A stretch of DNA of 43,125 nucleotides from Erysipelatoclostridium sp. An173 (GTDB lineage Bacteria; Bacillota_I; Bacilli_A; Erysipelotrichales; Coprobacillaceae), in contig NZ_NFKR01000023.1 in NCBI RefSeq assembly GCF_002160495.1, positions 1 through 43,125 of the forward strand, read 5' to 3'. The notes under the pieces were generated by a model. That model was not told where the DNA came from. It did no database searches and was given only the letters and a program-made list of their open reading frames with translations. Positions 5,013-27,512 of the stretch are shown here, in pieces (the first letter of the stretch is position 1; each line of letters starts with the position of its first letter). The position numbers were made by a program, and so were the translations under genes.

Positions 5013-6422
5013 TTATTTAGATAAGTTTTTAAATAACTCCATTGCTTTTGTTACATCATCAATATTAGCAACTCGATAAGTCCAGTTCGTATCATTTACT
5101 ACACCAGGTGTATTAAATCTTTGATCATTGTCGACTTCTAGTAAATCCCATATTGGAATAATGACATCACTAGCATCTGACTGTAAACAGAATTTTAAAA
5201 TAGCTTCGTTTAATGGTAAATCATCATCGACAATTGCTTTTAATTTATAAATATCTTCTTCATTTAAACCACTTATCCAGCCTTTGATTGTTTCATTATC
5301 ATGTGTTCCTGAATAGAAAAATGAGTTTTCAAGATTATCATAACCGTCATTTAGCATAAATTGAAAAACCTTCATTCCTTTTAAATGGTAATGATCTTTT
5401 AATTCAATAACCTCTGGTCGTAAATATCCTAAATCTTCAGCTACTAATTCAACATCACCTAAAGTTTCATATATTTTATCAAAAAGTGCATAGCCAGGTG
5501 CATATTGCCATTTACCTTCCATCGCTGTTTTAGCACTAGCAGGTATATCCCAATATGAATCAAAAGCTCTAAAGTGATCAATACGCGTAATATCAAAAAT
5601 TTCACTAGCCCAGCCAATTCGTTCAATCCAAAATCTAAAATCATTTTTCTCTAAATATTGCCAGTCATAAATCGGATTACCCCAATATTGTCCTGTAGGG
5701 CTAAAATAATCAGGTGGCACCCCAGCAACACTAGTTGGATATCCAATACCATCTAATAAAAATGATTTATTATCTAACCACACTTCTACAGAACCATGGT
5801 CAACATAGAAAGGCATATCACCAATTATTTTTATTCCTTTATCATTAGCATATTTTTTCAATTTAAACCATTGATTGAAAAATATATATTGTACAAATTG
5901 ATAATAACCTATTTCTTTACTATATTTAGTTAAATTAACTTGATGTTCTTGAGGATATTTTTTAAATTCATCAGGCCAGCTAGCCCAGTCATAACTATTA
6001 TTCACTGTGGCAAAAGTACAAAAAATCGCATAATCCAAAACCCAAGGACATTTTTTTAAAAAATTATAATAATCTTCAGTAAATTTAAAATTTTCATATG
6101 CTTTTAATAAATAAGTTCTTTTAAATTTACGTACTTTATCATATGGGACTTTTATTGCATCAGGATAGAATTCAGGTACTGAATCTAATAAACCATCAGC
6201 AACTAAATAATCTAAATTTATATAAATCTCATCTCCAGCATAAGTACTAACAGCTCGATAAGGCGAGTTAGCTTGTGTTGAGGGGTGAAATGGTAAAATT
6301 TGTAAATAATCAGCTCCATTTTTTTCTAATAGGTCAATAACTTTATAGGCATTTTCTCCTAAATCACCAATGCCGTAATTTGAAGGAAAACTAGATAACG
6401 GAAATAAAACTCCTGTTTCCAT
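5013..6422 (-). CDS. malQ: 4-alpha-glucanotransferase (amylomaltase, GH77)
   Basis: Transfers alpha-1,4-glucan segments between maltodextrins or to glucose in cytosolic starch/glycogen/maltodextrin use. GH77 signatures are all visible: SPY near residue 53, GDMPFYV (201-207), GVPPDYFSPTGQYWGNP (234-250), the nucleophile Asp in TRIDHFRAF (D282), the acid/base Glu in VAEDLG (E329) and the third acidic residue in SGTHDNET (D375). The 469-aa length is slightly shorter than most family members, but the catalytic core is complete. It starts 1 nt after the end of the LUD gene, with its RBS inside that gene (TTAGGAT), suggesting coupling. No maltodextrin transporter or phosphorylase is nearby. Confidence 0.95.
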   Translation of the reverse strand: METGVLFPLSSFPSNYGIGDLGENAYKVIDLLEKNGADYLQILPFHPSTQANSPYRAVSTYAGDEIYINLDYLVADGLLDSVPEFYPDAIKVPYDKVRKFKRTYLLKAYENFKFTEDYYNFLKKCPWVLDYAIFCTFATVNNSYDWASWPDEFKKYPQEHQVNLTKYSKEIGYYQFVQYIFFNQWFKLKKYANDKGIKIIGDMPFYVDHGSVEVWLDNKSFLLDGIGYPTSVAGVPPDYFSPTGQYWGNPIYDWQYLEKNDFRFWIERIGWASEIFDITRIDHFRAFDSYWDIPASAKTAMEGKWQYAPGYALFDKIYETLGDVELVAEDLGYLRPEVIELKDHYHLKGMKVFQFMLNDGYDNLENSFFYSGTHDNETIKGWISGLNEEDIYKLKAIVDDDLPLNEAILKFCLQSDASDVIIPIWDLLEVDNDQRFNTPGVVNDTNWTYRVANIDDVTKAMELFKNLSK

Positions 6423-6423
6423 T

Positions 6424-7074
6424 TTAATATCCTAAATCCTGATTAACTATTACAATTTTTATTCTGCCTACATTTCCCTGATAACCTAATTTTACAAAAC
6501 TGCTACAAATTCTATCTGGTGATAAACAATCCATACATTCCCCTTTTTTAGTGCATGGCGTATTTTTATTTAATCTAACTGCATTAGCTGGTGCGCTAAC
6601 TGTTTTTATATGATTAATGGCCTCTGCTTCAGTATTAAAGATTTTATTTTTTCCCGCAATAACAATTACTTCTTTAGGACCATAAATCATTGCTGCTACA
6701 CGATTTCCGTTTCCATCAATATTGTATAAACATCCATCAGTAGTTAATGCATTAGTACTAGTAATAAATAAATCACTAGTAAAAGCTTTTCGGTAAATTT
6801 CCTGCATTTGTTCACGATCTAATCCTTCTTGATAACGATCATGTAAAATTACATCAGAATTATGAATTTGTTCAATTACACCAGTTTCAAATAGGGTCAT
6901 TGAACCTCCTAGCGCTACTGTCTTTTTATTGCATAAGTAACGACTCAAATAATTGTGTAATTGTTCAAAATCGTCAACAAAATTGATTTGCATATTGTTT
7001 TTTTCGAATGCTTTAATCATATCATCTTGTTTAATTTTAATTATTGTTTGTAAATTTTTGTCCATAAAAGCCAT
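6424..7074 (-). CDS. LUD-domain (lactate utilisation, LutC/DUF162-like) protein
   Basis: A 216-aa protein of the LUD family. The sequence shows GGSMTLFETG (56-65), a Rossmann-like core with STNALTTDGCLYNIDGNGNRVAAMIYGPKEVIVIAGKNKI, and a C-terminal Cys cluster (C174, C180, C183, C190) of the kind that could bind a metal or Fe-S centre. LutC-type proteins act in L-lactate oxidation, but lone copies with this Cys cluster are common in anaerobes and have no established reaction. It is the first gene of the run LUD-malQ-WG-flavoprotein. The start is ambiguous: the first ATG (7074) is only 2-3 nt from GGAAAGG, and the ATG three codons later is 11 nt away. An array of DnaA-box-like sites lies about 80-130 nt upstream. 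Confidence 0.82.
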   Translation of the reverse strand: MAFMDKNLQTIIKIKQDDMIKAFEKNNMQINFVDDFEQLHNYLSRYLCNKKTVALGGSMTLFETGVIEQIHNSDVILHDRYQEGLDREQMQEIYRKAFTSDLFITSTNALTTDGCLYNIDGNGNRVAAMIYGPKEVIVIAGKNKIFNTEAEAINHIKTVSAPANAVRLNKNTPCTKKGECMDCLSPDRICSSFVKLGYQGNVGRIKIVIVNQDLGY

Positions 7075-7153
7075 TTCCTTTCCATCGTATAATATTAATT
7101 ATATTATTTTGCTAGCACAAAATCAACAAACTAAATTTTTTTATCTATACACA

Positions 7154-7203
7154 TTATTCACATGTTGTTCACAATGGGAATAACTTGTGAATAATGTGAA
7201 CAA
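7154..7203. promoter_or_regulatory. Array 1 of DnaA-box-like 9-mers
   Basis: Four 9-mers fill this intergenic stretch: TTATTCACA at 7154-7162 and TTGTTCACA at 7165-7173 on the plus strand, then their complements TGTGAATAA at 7186-7194 and TGTGAACAA at 7195-7203. TTATTCACA matches the bacterial DnaA-box consensus TTATNCACA; TTGTTCACA differs by one base. The pair spacings are 11 nt (forward) and 9 nt (inverted). The array lies between the terminator of the zinc ATPase and the promoter region of the LUD gene. DnaA binding is inference; another repressor with a TTCACA core is possible. Confidence 0.6.
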
Positions 7204-7234
7204 AAAAATCCTTGAATGATTAATTTCAAGGATT
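7202..7234 (-). terminator. Terminator of the zinc-efflux operon
   Basis: The stem AATCCTTGAA / TTCAAGGATT is followed on the minus strand by a run of seven T. It lies 8 nt beyond the stop codon of the P1B ATPase gene. Its T-run abuts the DnaA-box-like array. Confidence 0.9.
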
Positions 7235-7242
7235 CTTTATAT

Positions 7243-9699
7243 TTATCTTAAAATTCGCATTGAATTTAAAATGGCAATCAATGTTACACCAACATCAGCA
7301 AATACACCCATCCACATATTAGATAATCCAAACATTGTTAAAAGTAAAACTCCTATTTTGATAACCAATGTAAAAATTACATTTTGTTTTAAAATAAGAT
7401 TTGTTTTTTTGGAAATATCAATGGCTTCACCAATGGTATCAATATCATCGTTCATTAAGACAATATCAGCAGCTTCGATTGCAGCATCGCTACCGACACC
7501 ACCCATGGCAATTCCTAAATCAGCTCGAGCTAAAACTGGTGCATCATTGATACCATCACCAACGAATGCTGTTTTTTTATTATCTTGGATCAATTCTTCA
7601 ACTTTTGTTACTTTATCTTGTGGTAGTAATTCACTATAAACACGATCAATACCTACTTTACTAGCAATATCATCAGCTACTTCTTTACGATCACCAGTTA
7701 ACATAACGGTATCTTTTATTCCTGATTGTTTCAATCGTTTAATTCCAGTAATAGCAGTATCTTTGATCTTATCAGCAACAACAATATTTCCTAAATACTC
7801 ATCATTACAAGTTATATGAACTACTGTTCCAACTGTTGTTGGGTTTGTTACTTGATAACCCATATCTTCAATATAAGATTTATTTCCTAAATGATATAAA
7901 TCATTATCAATCTTTACCTCAATACCTTTACCAGCAACTTCTTTAAAATCTGAAATTCTTGATTGATCAATTTCTTGACCATATTTTTCAACAATACTTC
8001 TAGCAATTGGATGATTAGACATTCTTTCACCATAAGCACCAATCATTAATAAATCATCAGAACCATTGACTTCGACAACTTCAAAGCTACCTTCAGTTAA
8101 AGTTCCAGTTTTATCAAATACTATAGTATCAATATCTTTTAATAGTTCTAAGTAATTGCCACCTTTAATTAATGCCCCAACTTTACTAGCTTTTCCTAAT
8201 CCGGCATATAAACCTAACGGTATTGAAATGACTAAAGCACAAGGACATGAAACAACTAAAAATGTTAATGCTCGATATAACCAGTCAGTAAAGACTGCAT
8301 CTTTAAATATCAACATTGGAATTACTGCTAAAGCAACAGCTAGAAAAACTACTGTTGGAGTATATACTCTAGCAAACTTAGTTATAAATTGTTCGATTGG
8401 AGCTTTTTTACTAGCAGCATTTTCAACTAAATCTAAAATCTTAGATACTGTTGAATTTTCATAAGCTTGAGTTACCTTGATTTTAATAACGCCTGTTAAA
8501 TTTACAACACCAGCTAAAACTTCATCATTAATATCTACATTTCGTGGTAATGTTTCTCCTGTCAAACTTGATGTATCTAAGCTACTATTACCATTAACTA
8601 TAATACCATCTAATGGTACTTTTTCTCCTGGTTTTACTAATATTATATCATTGATTTTAACTTCTTCAGGAGCCACTTGTTTTACTGTATCGTCAATTAC
8701 TAAATTAGCATATTCACTTTTAATATCCATTAATGAACTAATAGAAGTTCTTGTTTTATTAACTGCATATGCCTGAAAAATTTCACCAATTGAATAAAAT
8801 AGCATTACTGCTATTGCTTCTTTGTAATCACTGATACAAAAAGCTCCGATTGTTGCAATACACATTAAAAAGTTTTCATCAAATATTTGACCTCTTTTTA
8901 TATTTTTTAAAGCTTTAAATAAAACTTTATAACCAATTAATAAATAAGCAATACCAAAGATAAATACATCATATTTTGTACCACCTAAAATAATTCCAAT
9001 TATATAAATTATTGTTCCAATAATTAATTCCACATGATCTTTACAAACAAATAGTTTTGGTTTTTCTATAACTTTAATATCTTTTTTCATTGATAAAGTA
9101 ATTCCGCTTTCTACTTTATCAATTACATTTTTCAAACGTTTTAATAATTCATCATCACTCATTTCCCTATTCAACTTAACTTTTAGTGTTTCAGTTGAAA
9201 ATATTATCATTGCATCTTCAACTTCATCCATCTTATTAATCTCTTGTTCAACTTTCATTGCACAATGTGCGCAATCAAGTCCATTAATATTAATATTGAT
9301 AGCATTTTTTAAATCACCATGGTGCATTGTTTCTACATGTTCATCATGATGGTCGTGATGACATCCACAACCACATTCATCATGGTGGTGTTCATGATTG
9401 CAATCGCATGAATGGTGATGATGATCATGGTCACAATCACATGAATGGTGATGGTGTTCGTGATCATGTTCGTTGTGTGTTGAATTTTGATTAACTAATT
9501 CAACATCTGGTTCGATACTACAAACAACTTGTTTGATCTTTTCTTCATCAAAACTATTTTCATCAACATCTAAAAACAACGTCGTAGTTGCAAAAGCAAT
9601 ATTACATTCATTGACATAATCTAATTTATTAAGCTGATCTTCTATTTTTTGAGCACAATGAGCACAATCCAATCCCTTCAAACTATACTTTAGTTTCAT
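7243..9699 (-). CDS. zntA: Zinc/cadmium/lead-exporting P1B-type ATPase
   Basis: An 818-aa ATP-driven efflux pump for Zn2+/Cd2+/Pb2+ in the cytoplasmic membrane. Two heavy-metal-associated domains occur, with CAHC motifs at C12/C15 and C143/C146. They are joined by a very His/Cys/Asp-rich linker (about 75-128) likely to buffer zinc. Catalytic motifs are TGE (380-382), the metal-path SCPCALV (C485, C487), the phosphorylated Asp in DKTGTLTEG (D529), the HP locus SNHPIA (H563), and GDGINDAPVLARAD (714-727). The Lys in M7 (LVIKIGVLLL) and Asp in M8 (ADVGVTL) are the P1B-2 (ZntA/CadA) signature and argue against copper. It lies 12 nt downstream of the ArsR-family regulator with RBS GGGAGG. Confidence 0.95.
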   Translation of the reverse strand: MKLKYSLKGLDCAHCAQKIEDQLNKLDYVNECNIAFATTTLFLDVDENSFDEEKIKQVVCSIEPDVELVNQNSTHNEHDHEHHHHSCDCDHDHHHHSCDCNHEHHHDECGCGCHHDHHDEHVETMHHGDLKNAINININGLDCAHCAMKVEQEINKMDEVEDAMIIFSTETLKVKLNREMSDDELLKRLKNVIDKVESGITLSMKKDIKVIEKPKLFVCKDHVELIIGTIIYIIGIILGGTKYDVFIFGIAYLLIGYKVLFKALKNIKRGQIFDENFLMCIATIGAFCISDYKEAIAVMLFYSIGEIFQAYAVNKTRTSISSLMDIKSEYANLVIDDTVKQVAPEEVKINDIILVKPGEKVPLDGIIVNGNSSLDTSSLTGETLPRNVDINDEVLAGVVNLTGVIKIKVTQAYENSTVSKILDLVENAASKKAPIEQFITKFARVYTPTVVFLAVALAVIPMLIFKDAVFTDWLYRALTFLVVSCPCALVISIPLGLYAGLGKASKVGALIKGGNYLELLKDIDTIVFDKTGTLTEGSFEVVEVNGSDDLLMIGAYGERMSNHPIARSIVEKYGQEIDQSRISDFKEVAGKGIEVKIDNDLYHLGNKSYIEDMGYQVTNPTTVGTVVHITCNDEYLGNIVVADKIKDTAITGIKRLKQSGIKDTVMLTGDRKEVADDIASKVGIDRVYSELLPQDKVTKVEELIQDNKKTAFVGDGINDAPVLARADLGIAMGGVGSDAAIEAADIVLMNDDIDTIGEAIDISKKTNLILKQNVIFTLVIKIGVLLLTMFGLSNMWMGVFADVGVTLIAILNSMRILR

Positions 9700-24405: not shown

Positions 24406-24428
24406 AAAGATTCTCAGTATCTTTTTTT
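24388..24428. terminator. Terminator shared by the second CtpE-like gene and the 128-aa gene
   Basis: GATACTGAG / CTCAGTATC stem with a T-run of seven on the plus strand and A-rich flank for the opposite direction. The stop codon of the ATPase is in the loop; the 3' arm encodes the end of the convergent gene. Confidence 0.85.
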
Positions 24429-24800
24429 CCTTGTTTTATTAGTCGCATTTAATAGATTTTCATATGCTTTTTTTATTAAAGTATCATATTCTTCACCAAA
24501 TAAAATTGTTTGATTTTTTAAAAAGATAACTAAACAATAATTTAATTTACGATTATTACGCAAATCGATTAAAGAAACCTGATCAACCAATGTTCTTCTT
24601 ACAATATCAATTGTCTCTTTTAAAAAATTTATTTCACCATATTTGATATCAACAATTTCATCAAATAAAAATTCTTTACTTTTAAAAATACCACTAACTG
24701 CAAAACAATCTTCTTTAATATTTAAAGTATACATCGCTCGACGGCGATATTCTTCAATACCACTGATATAATATAAATTATATTTACTTATATTTGCCAT
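24414..24800 (-). CDS. Uncharacterised 128-aa protein coupled to the TetM-Rae1 fusion
   Basis: I do not recognise this family. The sequence is a mix of beta strands (AMYTLNIKEDCFAVSGIFKSKEFLFDEIVDIKYG) and a helix, loosely reminiscent of small bacterial PH-like domains, with a basic tail (TNKTRKKRY). There is no signal peptide or membrane helix, so it is cytosolic. It starts 1 nt after the upstream fusion gene, and its RBS AAGGAG is within that gene's last codons, so translation is probably coupled. The basic tail would suit RNA or ribosome contact, but this is speculation. Confidence 0.75.
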   Translation of the reverse strand: MANISKYNLYYISGIEEYRRRAMYTLNIKEDCFAVSGIFKSKEFLFDEIVDIKYGEINFLKETIDIVRRTLVDQVSLIDLRNNRKLNYCLVIFLKNQTILFGEEYDTLIKKAYENLLNATNKTRKKRY

Positions 24801-24801
24801 A

Positions 24802-27372
24802 TTATTCTCCTTGGTTCGAATTATATTTTTTTATATCCGCTAATAAATAATCATGTCCTTTAGGTTGTTTGCGACGATATTCTTCAAGTTTTTCTTGATC
24901 TAATCTAGTTGCCTCTAAATACAACTCTCGTGAAGAAATTCTTTTAGCCCCCTGCCCTAGAACTATTAATTGCTCAAGAGCATCAGAAGTAACAACCGTA
25001 ATATTATATTTACTAGCTAATTCATGGGTAGTTCGTTCAATATACATATCTGCAGTCTGAGCCTCTTTTGTATATACAACATAGATATTATGGTATTTTT
25101 CACTTGTTCCTAAGTTGTTTTTAACTTTATAAGCGTCAAAAACAAGTATTAAAATACATTTTTTATATCCCTGATAATTACACATTAAGTCCATTAATCT
25201 AAAACGAGCAGCATCTAGATTATCTTTTACAAGTTCTTTTAATTCAGGCCAGGCATGAATTACATTATAGCCATCTACTAAGATACATTCTGGTTTAGGT
25301 TTATAAACCGGTTCCTTTATTAAAGGTTTAGCTTTATGAGTCGATTCACCACGTTGTTTTAATGGTCCATATGTTTTAGTAAAAATTGCTTCTAATTCTT
25401 CATCTTCATCTTGATAGCGTTCTTCTTTGTAATTACTTACCATTGGCTTAGCAGCTTTTTTTGTTTGATATGGAATATGTATATATTTAGGCACTTCATC
25501 CCAGCTTACATTAAATCCTGCTCCATGACTGCAAAAAACAGAGCCGGTAGGATTATTTAGATCAGCTTCACTATCATAATTTATTTGTTCAATAATTTTG
25601 TCTTGCTCTTGACAAGGCTGATAGCAATCTAAACGATAAATTAAACGCCCTTTACCTTTAGTATAACTAATAACTTCATTTTGATAATTTTGCATTTTAC
25701 TAACTGGTGCCTTGCCAGATAAAATAACTTTATCAGCTGTCTGGTCTTTTATTTTAAATTCACCATTCATTAATTCAATATCATAAATTGCTTTACTTAA
25801 ACTTTCGGCCGGTATTTCTAATGAAAAAGCAAAATATGGTTCTAATAGAACTGATTTAGTCATTTTTAATCCTTGGCGTAAAGCACGATAAGTTGCTTCA
25901 CGGAAATCGCCACCTTCAGTATGCTTTTGATGAGCCTTACCAGCAACAAGGGTAATTTTCATATCGGTAATTGGTGACCCTGTTAAAACACCTAAATGTT
26001 CTTTTTCTTGTAGATGGGTTAATACTAAATGTTGATAATTAATAGGAAGTTGTTCTTCTTTACAATTTAAAGCAAACTGTAAACCACTATCTTTAGGTCC
26101 TGGTTCTAATAAAAGATGAACTTCACTATAATGACGTAATGGCTCATAGTGACCAACCCCCTCAACTGGTTCTAAAATTGTTTCTTTATATAAGATTCTT
26201 CCAAAATCAAAATCAACATCAATATTAAAACGTTCTTTTATAATATTTTTTAAAACTTCTATTTGAATAGCCCCCATTAACTGAATGTGAATTTCTTGTG
26301 AAGAACTATCATAAACAATATGTAATTGTGGATCTTCTTGTGCTAATAACTGTAAGTTAGCTAGCATTTTATGTTGATCACAGTTATCTGGAAGAATAAT
26401 TCGATAATCCATATAAGAAGATAAAACAGGTGAAATTTCGTCTTTTTCAAAACCTAAGCCTTGTCCAGCCTGAATATTTTTAAAACCTTTTATTGCACAA
26501 ACATTACCAGCTTCTATTTTATCAACTGTAGTAAATTTGTTTCCCGAATATATTCTAATTTGATCAACTTTTTCATCTTTGTTAATTAAAGATTTTACTT
26601 TCAATAAACCACCAGTAATTTTTAAATGGGTCAAACGATTTCCTTGATCATCATGACTTATCTTATACACTCGAGCACCAAAATCTTCTGGATACTCTTT
26701 AGTAGCTATATATTTTGTAAACTGATCAAGAAAATGTTCTATTCCAGACATTTTTAAAGCCGAACCGAAATAAACTGGAAATATATTACGTTTAGCAATT
26801 TCATCAACAAGCATATTATCTTCTAAGGTTTGATGTTTTAAATAATAATCTAATAAATTTTCATTATTTAATGCTACATTTTCGAAAAAATCAGTATCTA
26901 AATTATCAAAATCATAACATTGTTCGCTAAAATTCTTTTTTAAATCCTCTATAAGCTCATGCTTATCTTTTAAGGAAATGTCCATTTTATTTACAAAAAC
27001 AAATGTTGGTATTTGATAGTGCTTTAACAAATGCCAAATTGTTTCACTGTGTGCCTGAACTCCATCTAAACCGTTAATTACTAATATTGCATAATCTAAG
27101 ACCTGAAGTGTACGTTCCATTTCTGTTGAAAAATCAACATGGCCTGGTGTATCTATCAAAGTAATCTTACAATCATTATATTCAAAAACTGCTTGCTTAG
27201 AAAAAATTGTAATCCCACGATCTCGTTCTTGATTATTATAATCTAAGAAGGCATCACCATGATCAACGCGACCATATTTTCTAATTGCCCCACTTAAATA
27301 AAGCATACTTTCTGTTAATGTAGTTTTTCCTGCATCAACATGGGCTAATATTCCTAAAACTATATTTTTCAT
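24802..27372 (-). CDS. TetM/EF-G-like translational GTPase fused to a Rae1/YacP-type NYN endoribonuclease
   Basis: An 856-aa two-part protein. Residues 1 to about 640 are a complete EF-G/TetM-like GTPase: AHVDAGKTTL (P-loop, 10-19), NNQERDRGITI, DTPGHVDF and NKMD, followed by EF-G domains II-V (LLEPYFAFSLEIP; GSVFCSHGAGFNVSWDEVP). After a charged linker (about 640-693, EELEAIFTKTYGP) comes a full NYN/PIN nuclease (694-856) resembling B. subtilis Rae1 (YacP). Its acidic residues are in LVDGYN (D700), LVFDAY (D746), QTADMYIE (D775) and VTSDALEQ (D797), and GQGAKRISSREL is also present. TetM-type factors enter the ribosomal A site and Rae1 cuts mRNA there. The fusion suggests GTPase-guided mRNA cleavage or rescue (inference). 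Tetracycline resistance is not implied. Confidence 0.92.
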   Translation of the reverse strand: MKNIVLGILAHVDAGKTTLTESMLYLSGAIRKYGRVDHGDAFLDYNNQERDRGITIFSKQAVFEYNDCKITLIDTPGHVDFSTEMERTLQVLDYAILVINGLDGVQAHSETIWHLLKHYQIPTFVFVNKMDISLKDKHELIEDLKKNFSEQCYDFDNLDTDFFENVALNNENLLDYYLKHQTLEDNMLVDEIAKRNIFPVYFGSALKMSGIEHFLDQFTKYIATKEYPEDFGARVYKISHDDQGNRLTHLKITGGLLKVKSLINKDEKVDQIRIYSGNKFTTVDKIEAGNVCAIKGFKNIQAGQGLGFEKDEISPVLSSYMDYRIILPDNCDQHKMLANLQLLAQEDPQLHIVYDSSSQEIHIQLMGAIQIEVLKNIIKERFNIDVDFDFGRILYKETILEPVEGVGHYEPLRHYSEVHLLLEPGPKDSGLQFALNCKEEQLPINYQHLVLTHLQEKEHLGVLTGSPITDMKITLVAGKAHQKHTEGGDFREATYRALRQGLKMTKSVLLEPYFAFSLEIPAESLSKAIYDIELMNGEFKIKDQTADKVILSGKAPVSKMQNYQNEVISYTKGKGRLIYRLDCYQPCQEQDKIIEQINYDSEADLNNPTGSVFCSHGAGFNVSWDEVPKYIHIPYQTKKAAKPMVSNYKEERYQDEDEELEAIFTKTYGPLKQRGESTHKAKPLIKEPVYKPKPECILVDGYNVIHAWPELKELVKDNLDAARFRLMDLMCNYQGYKKCILILVFDAYKVKNNLGTSEKYHNIYVVYTKEAQTADMYIERTTHELASKYNITVVTSDALEQLIVLGQGAKRISSRELYLEATRLDQEKLEEYRRKQPKGHDYLLADIKKYNSNQGE

Positions 27373-27436: not shown

Positions 27437-27454
27437 CTTTATTTTACCACTAAT

Positions 27455-27497
27455 AAAAAAAGCATGGTGATAAATTATATCATCGCATGCTTTTTTT
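27455..27497. terminator. Terminator between the DUF89 gene and the TetM-Rae1 gene
   Basis: AAAAAAAGCATG / CATGCTTTTTTT stem with an inner GTGAT / ATCAT extension. A T-run of seven forms on the minus strand. It ends the GNAT-DUF89 transcript, about 77 nt beyond the DUF89 stop codon. Confidence 0.82.
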
Positions 27498-27512
27498 ATT
27501 GTTTATTAACCT

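Follow-up and report, generated by a model that had tools for sequence, protein, structure and literature searches.

The window, a 43,125-nucleotide stretch of DNA from Erysipelatoclostridium sp. An173, contains on its minus strand a gene (24802–27372) for an 856-residue protein that joins an EF-G/Tet-like translational GTPase to a Rae1/YacP NYN nuclease, as identified from the open reading frame, Pfam domains, and homologues. The frame opens with ATG and has no internal stops. The GTPase half starts with a G domain (res. 4–223; 26704–27363, minus strand; Pfam PF00009 (GTP_EFTU), 1.1e-52), followed by domains II–III (res. 232–388; 26209–26679, minus strand), recognized by EF-G_D2 (res. 232–304, 22.9 bits, under the Pfam cut-off) and EFG_III (res. 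328–388). Domain IV (res. 391–504; 25861–26202, minus strand; EFG_IV, 1.1e-19) exposes subfamily-specific tip loops, and domain V (res. 508–590; 25603–25851, minus strand; EFG_C, 3.7e-16) leads into a C-terminal extension that alignments identify as particular to the subfamily (res. 591–634; 25471–25602, minus strand). A charged low-complexity linker defined by alignment (res. 635–694; 25291–25470, minus strand) connects this half to the NYN_YacP (Rae1) nuclease domain (res. 697–846; 24835–25284, minus strand; Pfam 7.6e-49).

The GTPase motifs are intact (G1 AHVDAGKT, G2 RGITI, G3 DTPGH, G4 NKMD). The nuclease domain scores 166.3 bits against a curated Pfam cut-off of 24.6 and matches the solved structures of Bacillus subtilis YacP/Rae1 (PDB 5MQ8/5MQ9) with an E-value of 3.5e-25 over 139 residues. 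The catalytic aspartates are D700, D746, D775, and D797, the GQGAKRISSREL segment spans residues 806–817, and alignment with B. subtilis Rae1 locates the GxGAxRxSxREL segment of Rae1/YacP in the fusion. The two proteins have in common the NYN_YacP domain, the four catalytic Asp, and the GQGAxRxSxREL segment, and stand-alone Rae1 proteins are 37–38% identical to the fusion's NYN. They differ in that B. subtilis Rae1/YacP is a stand-alone protein of about 170 amino acids encoded between rlmB and sigH, whereas the nuclease of the fusion follows a GTPase at another locus. A sequence-only reading of this DNA had described one polypeptide with a complete EF-G/TetM-like GTPase and a full NYN domain; the intact frame, the Pfam domains, and the presence of all motifs bear this out, and the positions it gave for the four Asp and the GQGAKRISSREL segment are correct. 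The search for the two-domain architecture that it proposed recovered, among relatives, the same two-part frame in dozens of genomes, at about 35–75% identity and mostly at least 813 residues long. This recurrence rules out a chance frame or an assembly fusion.

An AlphaFold2 model, built on a 20-sequence alignment with few NYN relatives, is confident for the GTPase half (mostly 75–93 pLDDT) and predicts a disordered linker (pLDDT <50 over res. 607–698). Because NYN relatives are few in this shallow alignment, the nuclease part is unreliable (mostly 33–68 pLDDT), so that the evidence for the NYN fold comes from the sequence rather than from the model. The modeled GTPase half superimposes over about 600 residues on ribosome-bound EF-G (Z up to 39) and on TetM (PDB 3j9y; Z 31.8). 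NYN-like structures are absent from the list of fold matches, that region of the model being untrustworthy.

Upstream, a terminator-like hairpin with a U-run, located by folding (27448–27502, minus strand; −20.5 kcal/mol, z about −8.8 (−8.84)), separates the fusion from a damage-control phosphatase gene. Downstream, the ORF list contains a 128-residue frame that starts 1 nt past the fusion stop (24414–24800, minus strand); it has no Pfam or NCBIfam match, is conserved within the genus only (L031, L057), and is probably co-transcribed with the fusion. The notion that the fusion forms its own operon was therefore mostly right: the hairpin parts it from the phosphatase gene, and the small frame has to be added behind it. 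A promoter scan at the fusion did no better than chance, and no riboswitch or attenuator in the leader was found by Rfam within the window. Comparison of the relatives' loci revealed no conserved neighborhood of the fusion beyond the genus. In four relatives (L057, L064, L086, L087), a MATE-type efflux pump, recognized by eye, lies directly upstream on the same strand at about 1.4 kb; the window has no such pump upstream of the fusion. The genome encodes a tmRNA (149.9 bits).

Relationship of the GTPase half to Tet proteins and EF-G

Tet proteins with a YacP-like NYN domain have been reported in ten Clostridiales species by Atkinson 2015, who proposed a possible RNase-based antibiotic resistance mechanism (excerpted text of PMC4342817). 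The fusion has this architecture, a Tet-like trGTPase followed by a YacP-like NYN domain in one polypeptide, and belongs to that group, so the combination is not new, as the sequence-only reading had supposed (PMC4342817). The excerpted text of Atkinson 2015 does not discuss a replacement of Rae1, a changed domain IV tip, a separate subfamily, or variants. A full-text search, with the primary Rae1 papers outside its scope, returned no later paper that joins the Atkinson fusion with Rae1 activity. As far as checked, the architecture is known, and the Rae1 replacement, the separate subfamily, and the variants have not been described. The functional description of Rae1 (Leroy 2017) came after the report of the fusions.

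In a tree of 63 sequences, the fusions and their NYN-less relatives form one clade (SH-aLRT 99) that stands beside the Tet clade (100) and apart from EF-G. Loop comparison distinguishes the three groups at the tip of domain IV, where the subfamily exposes GHFEPLRHYAEV and KAHxKHTEGGDF, Tet proteins HIEVPPNPFWAS and YYSPVSTPADF, and EF-G RQSGGRGQYGHV and SYHDVDSSEMAY (SYHxVDSSEMAx type). The Tet loop YYSPVSTPADF is identical in the nine Tet sequences compared, save one residue in one of them; neither it nor HIEVPPNPxWAxxGL occurs in the fusion, which has KAHQKHTEGGDF and GHYEPLRHYSEVHL in their place. The C-terminal extension (DxxNPTGSxFCxHGAGxxVxWDEV) is likewise found in the NYN-less relatives and is absent from Tet and EF-G. 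The subfamily is a distinct clade, sister to Tet, and its domain IV tip loops are peculiar to it. With Tet(M)/Tet(O) the fusion shares a five-domain EF2-class GTPase at about 31–33% identity; it differs in its tip loops, its extra C-terminal extension, its NYN domain, and Tet scores below cut-off. The best NCBIfam match, tet_protect, reaches 436.7 bits against a cut-off of 775, and the TetM/W model 313.7 against 1100. Like EF-G, the fusion has the five-domain fold and intact GTPase motifs; unlike it, the fusion is not a housekeeping translocase, with another domain IV tip, at most 27% identity to the genome's two EF-Gs, and 309.9 bits for the EF-G model TIGR00484 (NCBIfam cut-off 659.4).

In Tet proteins, the tip loops dislodge tetracycline (excerpted text of PMC4342817), and the missing Tet signature therefore argues against such a function here. 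Ten fusion-bearing genomes also carry a separate true Tet protein. The absence of the Tet loop and the coexistence with true Tet genes make it improbable that the fusion is a tetracycline-resistance protein. The sequence-only reading had correctly seen no tetracycline-resistance context: two EF-Gs and the fusion are the only EFG_IV proteins in the genome. Its TetM-type label does not hold, given a domain IV tip of KAHxKHTEGGDF against YYSPVSTPADF in Tet and SYHxVDSSEMAx in EF-G, and since this tip is not TetM-type, a drug-blocked ribosome as the target is weakly founded.

The NYN-less relatives occur in Paenibacillus, Lactobacillaceae, and Subdoligranulum. Those named 'translation factor GTPase family' in Ligilactobacillus salivarius (pMP118) and Paenibacillus cellulosilyticus are 42–48% identical to the fusion, with the same tip loops and extension, but they have neither linker nor NYN domain. 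In P. cellulosilyticus, a canonical rae1 lies elsewhere on the same replicon. The existence of NYN-less relatives means that the GTPase is useful by itself. On the L. salivarius megaplasmid pMP118, the NYN-less gene (L048 4529–6920) and a plasmid-borne rpsN copy (30S protein S14) are divergent neighbors.

Both active sites are conserved across 49 aligned sequences (48 loci at 36–75% identity to the window protein). G1–G4, including the PGH histidine, are intact in 48/48 GTPases, and D700, D746, D775, and D797 are invariant in 46/46 NYN-bearing sequences; the degenerate NYN residues that had been named beforehand as counting against a nuclease are seen in none of these homologues. Domain IV has the greatest mean identity (64%), ahead of the NYN (55%) and G (54%) domains, and the linker has the least (23%). 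Because the catalytic residues are invariant and per-domain identity is high, the predicted GTPase and nuclease activities are both very probably under selection.

The empty rae1 site and the distribution of the fusion

In B. subtilis and Clostridioides difficile, the immediate neighbors of rae1 are rlmB on one side and sigH on the other, and the order rlmB-rae1-sigH recurs in Listeria, Staphylococcus, Latilactobacillus, Aerococcus, and Paenibacillus. The window's genome retains the run cysS-mrnC-rlmB-sigma factor-secE-nusG intact except for rae1, and its rlmB and sigma-factor genes are 17 bp apart. No rae1 was found at the rlmB-sigH site in any of the 25 relatives examined; the sigma gene follows rlmB within 99 bp in 23 of them, and none was recognized in the other two. 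Because the ancestral cysS-mrnC-rlmB-[rae1]-sigH site is empty here and in all 25 relatives, the fusion has taken the place of the stand-alone Rae1. Six of the 25 lack the fusion as well, and the loss of rae1 from this site therefore predates the presence of the fusion or extends beyond it. Any Rae1 domain in this lineage is the fused one.

Several plasmid-labeled records encode a stand-alone NYN protein, which in the annotated records inspected lies within a normal chromosomal rlmB-rae1-sigH segment. The circular records of this kind (L176, L177, L228, L227) measure 97 kb in C. difficile, 129 kb in B. subtilis, 161 kb in Staphylococcus aureus, and 476 kb in Listeria, and the C. difficile and B. 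subtilis circles also carry ribosomal-protein genes. These circles may have arisen as by-products of assembly or by excision from the chromosome.

The only NYN_YacP domain in the window's genome is that of the fusion. Exactly one is present in 69 of 98 relatives, and in 64 of these it lies within a frame of at least 813 residues. Three genomes have the NYN in a short frame: one is a natural split (G263), and two have the GTPase on another contig, where a split gene and an assembly break are indistinguishable (G401, G430). In the remaining two of the 69 (G095, G429), the fusion is shortened. With the GTPase half as query, 67 genomes matched the subfamily at E ≤ 1e-117, every one of them NYN-bearing; the two other NYN-bearing genomes, those with the shortened form, do have G-II-III. 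Neither the subfamily GTPase nor the NYN was found in the other 29 relatives. Across a phylum sample, NYN_YacP exceeds the cut-off in 39 of 392 genomes, all of them in two families of the order and one other family of the class. The closest named relative is a Thomasclavelia MAG (75%), which places the window in or near Coprobacillaceae, and two Clostridia records (L046, L047) have the same GTPase-NYN architecture. Scans of viral contigs with NYN or Rae1 queries found no phage relative; viral matches to the GTPase half are EF-G/Tet-like or NYN-less.

In a comparison with seven stand-alone Rae1 proteins, the fused NYN domains group in a single clade (99/98), and this monophyly is consistent with one fusion event. 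The GTPase tree has NYN-less members at two positions; because one group is nested among the fusions, at least some have lost the NYN domain. Other natural variants occur as well. L072 has two frames in place of one, divided at the linker: a 684-residue GTPase (5027–7081, plus strand) and a 146-residue NYN frame (7078–7518, plus strand) with a 4-bp overlap, produced either by natural fission or by a frameshift. Two species of one genus lack domains IV and V (L071 7843–9627 and L085 7752–9563, both minus strand). Their proteins are 63% identical to each other and keep all G motifs, the linker element, and the four Asp; a congener (L084) has the full-length form. Because this natural deletion spares both active sites, it suggests that GTPase core and nuclease are a pair kept by selection. 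The linker itself contains an acidic/aromatic element, DEELxxIFxxTYG, followed by basic residues. The element is kept even in the shortened forms of L071 and L085 and may serve to bind a ribosomal protein; a simple regular expression matches it in 29 of 45 cases.

A putative ribosome-tethered Rae1 and its alternatives

In B. subtilis, the target of Rae1 is mRNA in the A site (review PMC12320835). We consider it probable, with moderate confidence, that the fusion serves its lineage as Rae1: an mRNA endonuclease that depends on translation, is permanently tethered to a ribosome-binding translational GTPase, and acts on paused ribosomes. In its GTP form, the protein would bind to the factor site that EF-G and TetM also use, on paused ribosomes whose A site is empty or abnormally filled, and domain IV would probe or clear this A site. 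GTP hydrolysis or release of domain IV would then let the linker-borne NYN domain enter and cut the A-site mRNA, as Rae1 does in B. subtilis, and the truncated mRNA ends would be handled by tmRNA and exonucleases. By our estimate, the ~60-residue linker is long enough for the NYN domain to move tens of angstroms. Since domain IV and the NYN domain cannot share the A site, the simplest picture is that one hands over to the other in sequence. The sequence-only proposal of a factor that binds the A site and cuts mRNA gains from the integrity of both halves, but simple binding and cutting overstates the case, as a sequential step is required. That GTP hydrolysis is coupled to cutting, with domain IV sampling or emptying the A site and its withdrawal handing the codon to the NYN domain, is a tentative extension that we hold to be possible, though on balance doubtful. 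Stand-alone Rae1 works in B. subtilis without a fused GTPase; this and the existence of NYN-less GTPases count against the proposed reading.

The GTPase might instead do no more than concentrate Rae1 at ribosomes while acting independently, for example as an EF-G-like helper on stalls, with hydrolysis uncoupled from cutting. A linker that is long, variable (23% mean identity), and predicted to be disordered would suit such a passive tether, as would the separate genes for the two halves in Paenibacillus, the 4-bp-overlapping split in L072, and the persistence of NYN-less GTPases. The halves are nevertheless completely co-retained over the 98 genomes sampled, and the short acidic linker element recurs even in forms without domains IV and V, so that we regard this arrangement as unlikely. 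A different substrate is also conceivable, the GTPase binding ribosomal particles and the NYN domain trimming or cutting rRNA (or tRNA). For NYN_YacP, Anantharaman and Aravind originally predicted rRNA/tRNA as substrates (cited in the excerpted text of PMC4342817), and the ancestral rae1 site adjoins mrnC and rlmB, both rRNA-related. We find a role in rRNA processing or ribosome assembly quite unlikely, given that the characterized member of this nuclease family has mRNA in translating ribosomes as its substrate (PMC12320835, PMC10100781) and that the GTPase is of the EF2 class, which acts on whole 70S, with domain IV its most conserved part.

The resistance mechanism proposed by Atkinson 2015, in which a Tet ribosomal protection protein gained an RNase against tetracycline or another A-site drug, draws on the sister position of the Tet clade, on tet_protect as the best NCBIfam match (436.7 bits), on public annotation that often names the TetM/TetW/TetO/TetS family, and on the MATE-type pump just upstream in four relatives. 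The tet_protect score nevertheless falls far short of the cut-off of 775, KAHxKHTEGGDF replaces the Tet loop YYSPVSTPADF, and ten fusion genomes hold a separate true Tet protein. The fusion is moreover near-universal and single-copy in the family, without mobile or resistance context, and occupies the role of Rae1, all of which makes a resistance function distinctly improbable.

A Rae1 probably tethered to a ribosome-binding GTPase bears on how Rae1 picks paused ribosomes and gains the A site. Across Coprobacillaceae and the order, Rae1 is found only behind an A-site-directed GTPase, which points to a functional partnership. The annotation should be corrected as well: these proteins are often named tetracycline-resistance proteins, and their sequence and distribution favor a housekeeping mRNA-decay or rescue factor. 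If the coupling proposed above is true, Rae1-type decay would be a GTP-licensed step in these bacteria.
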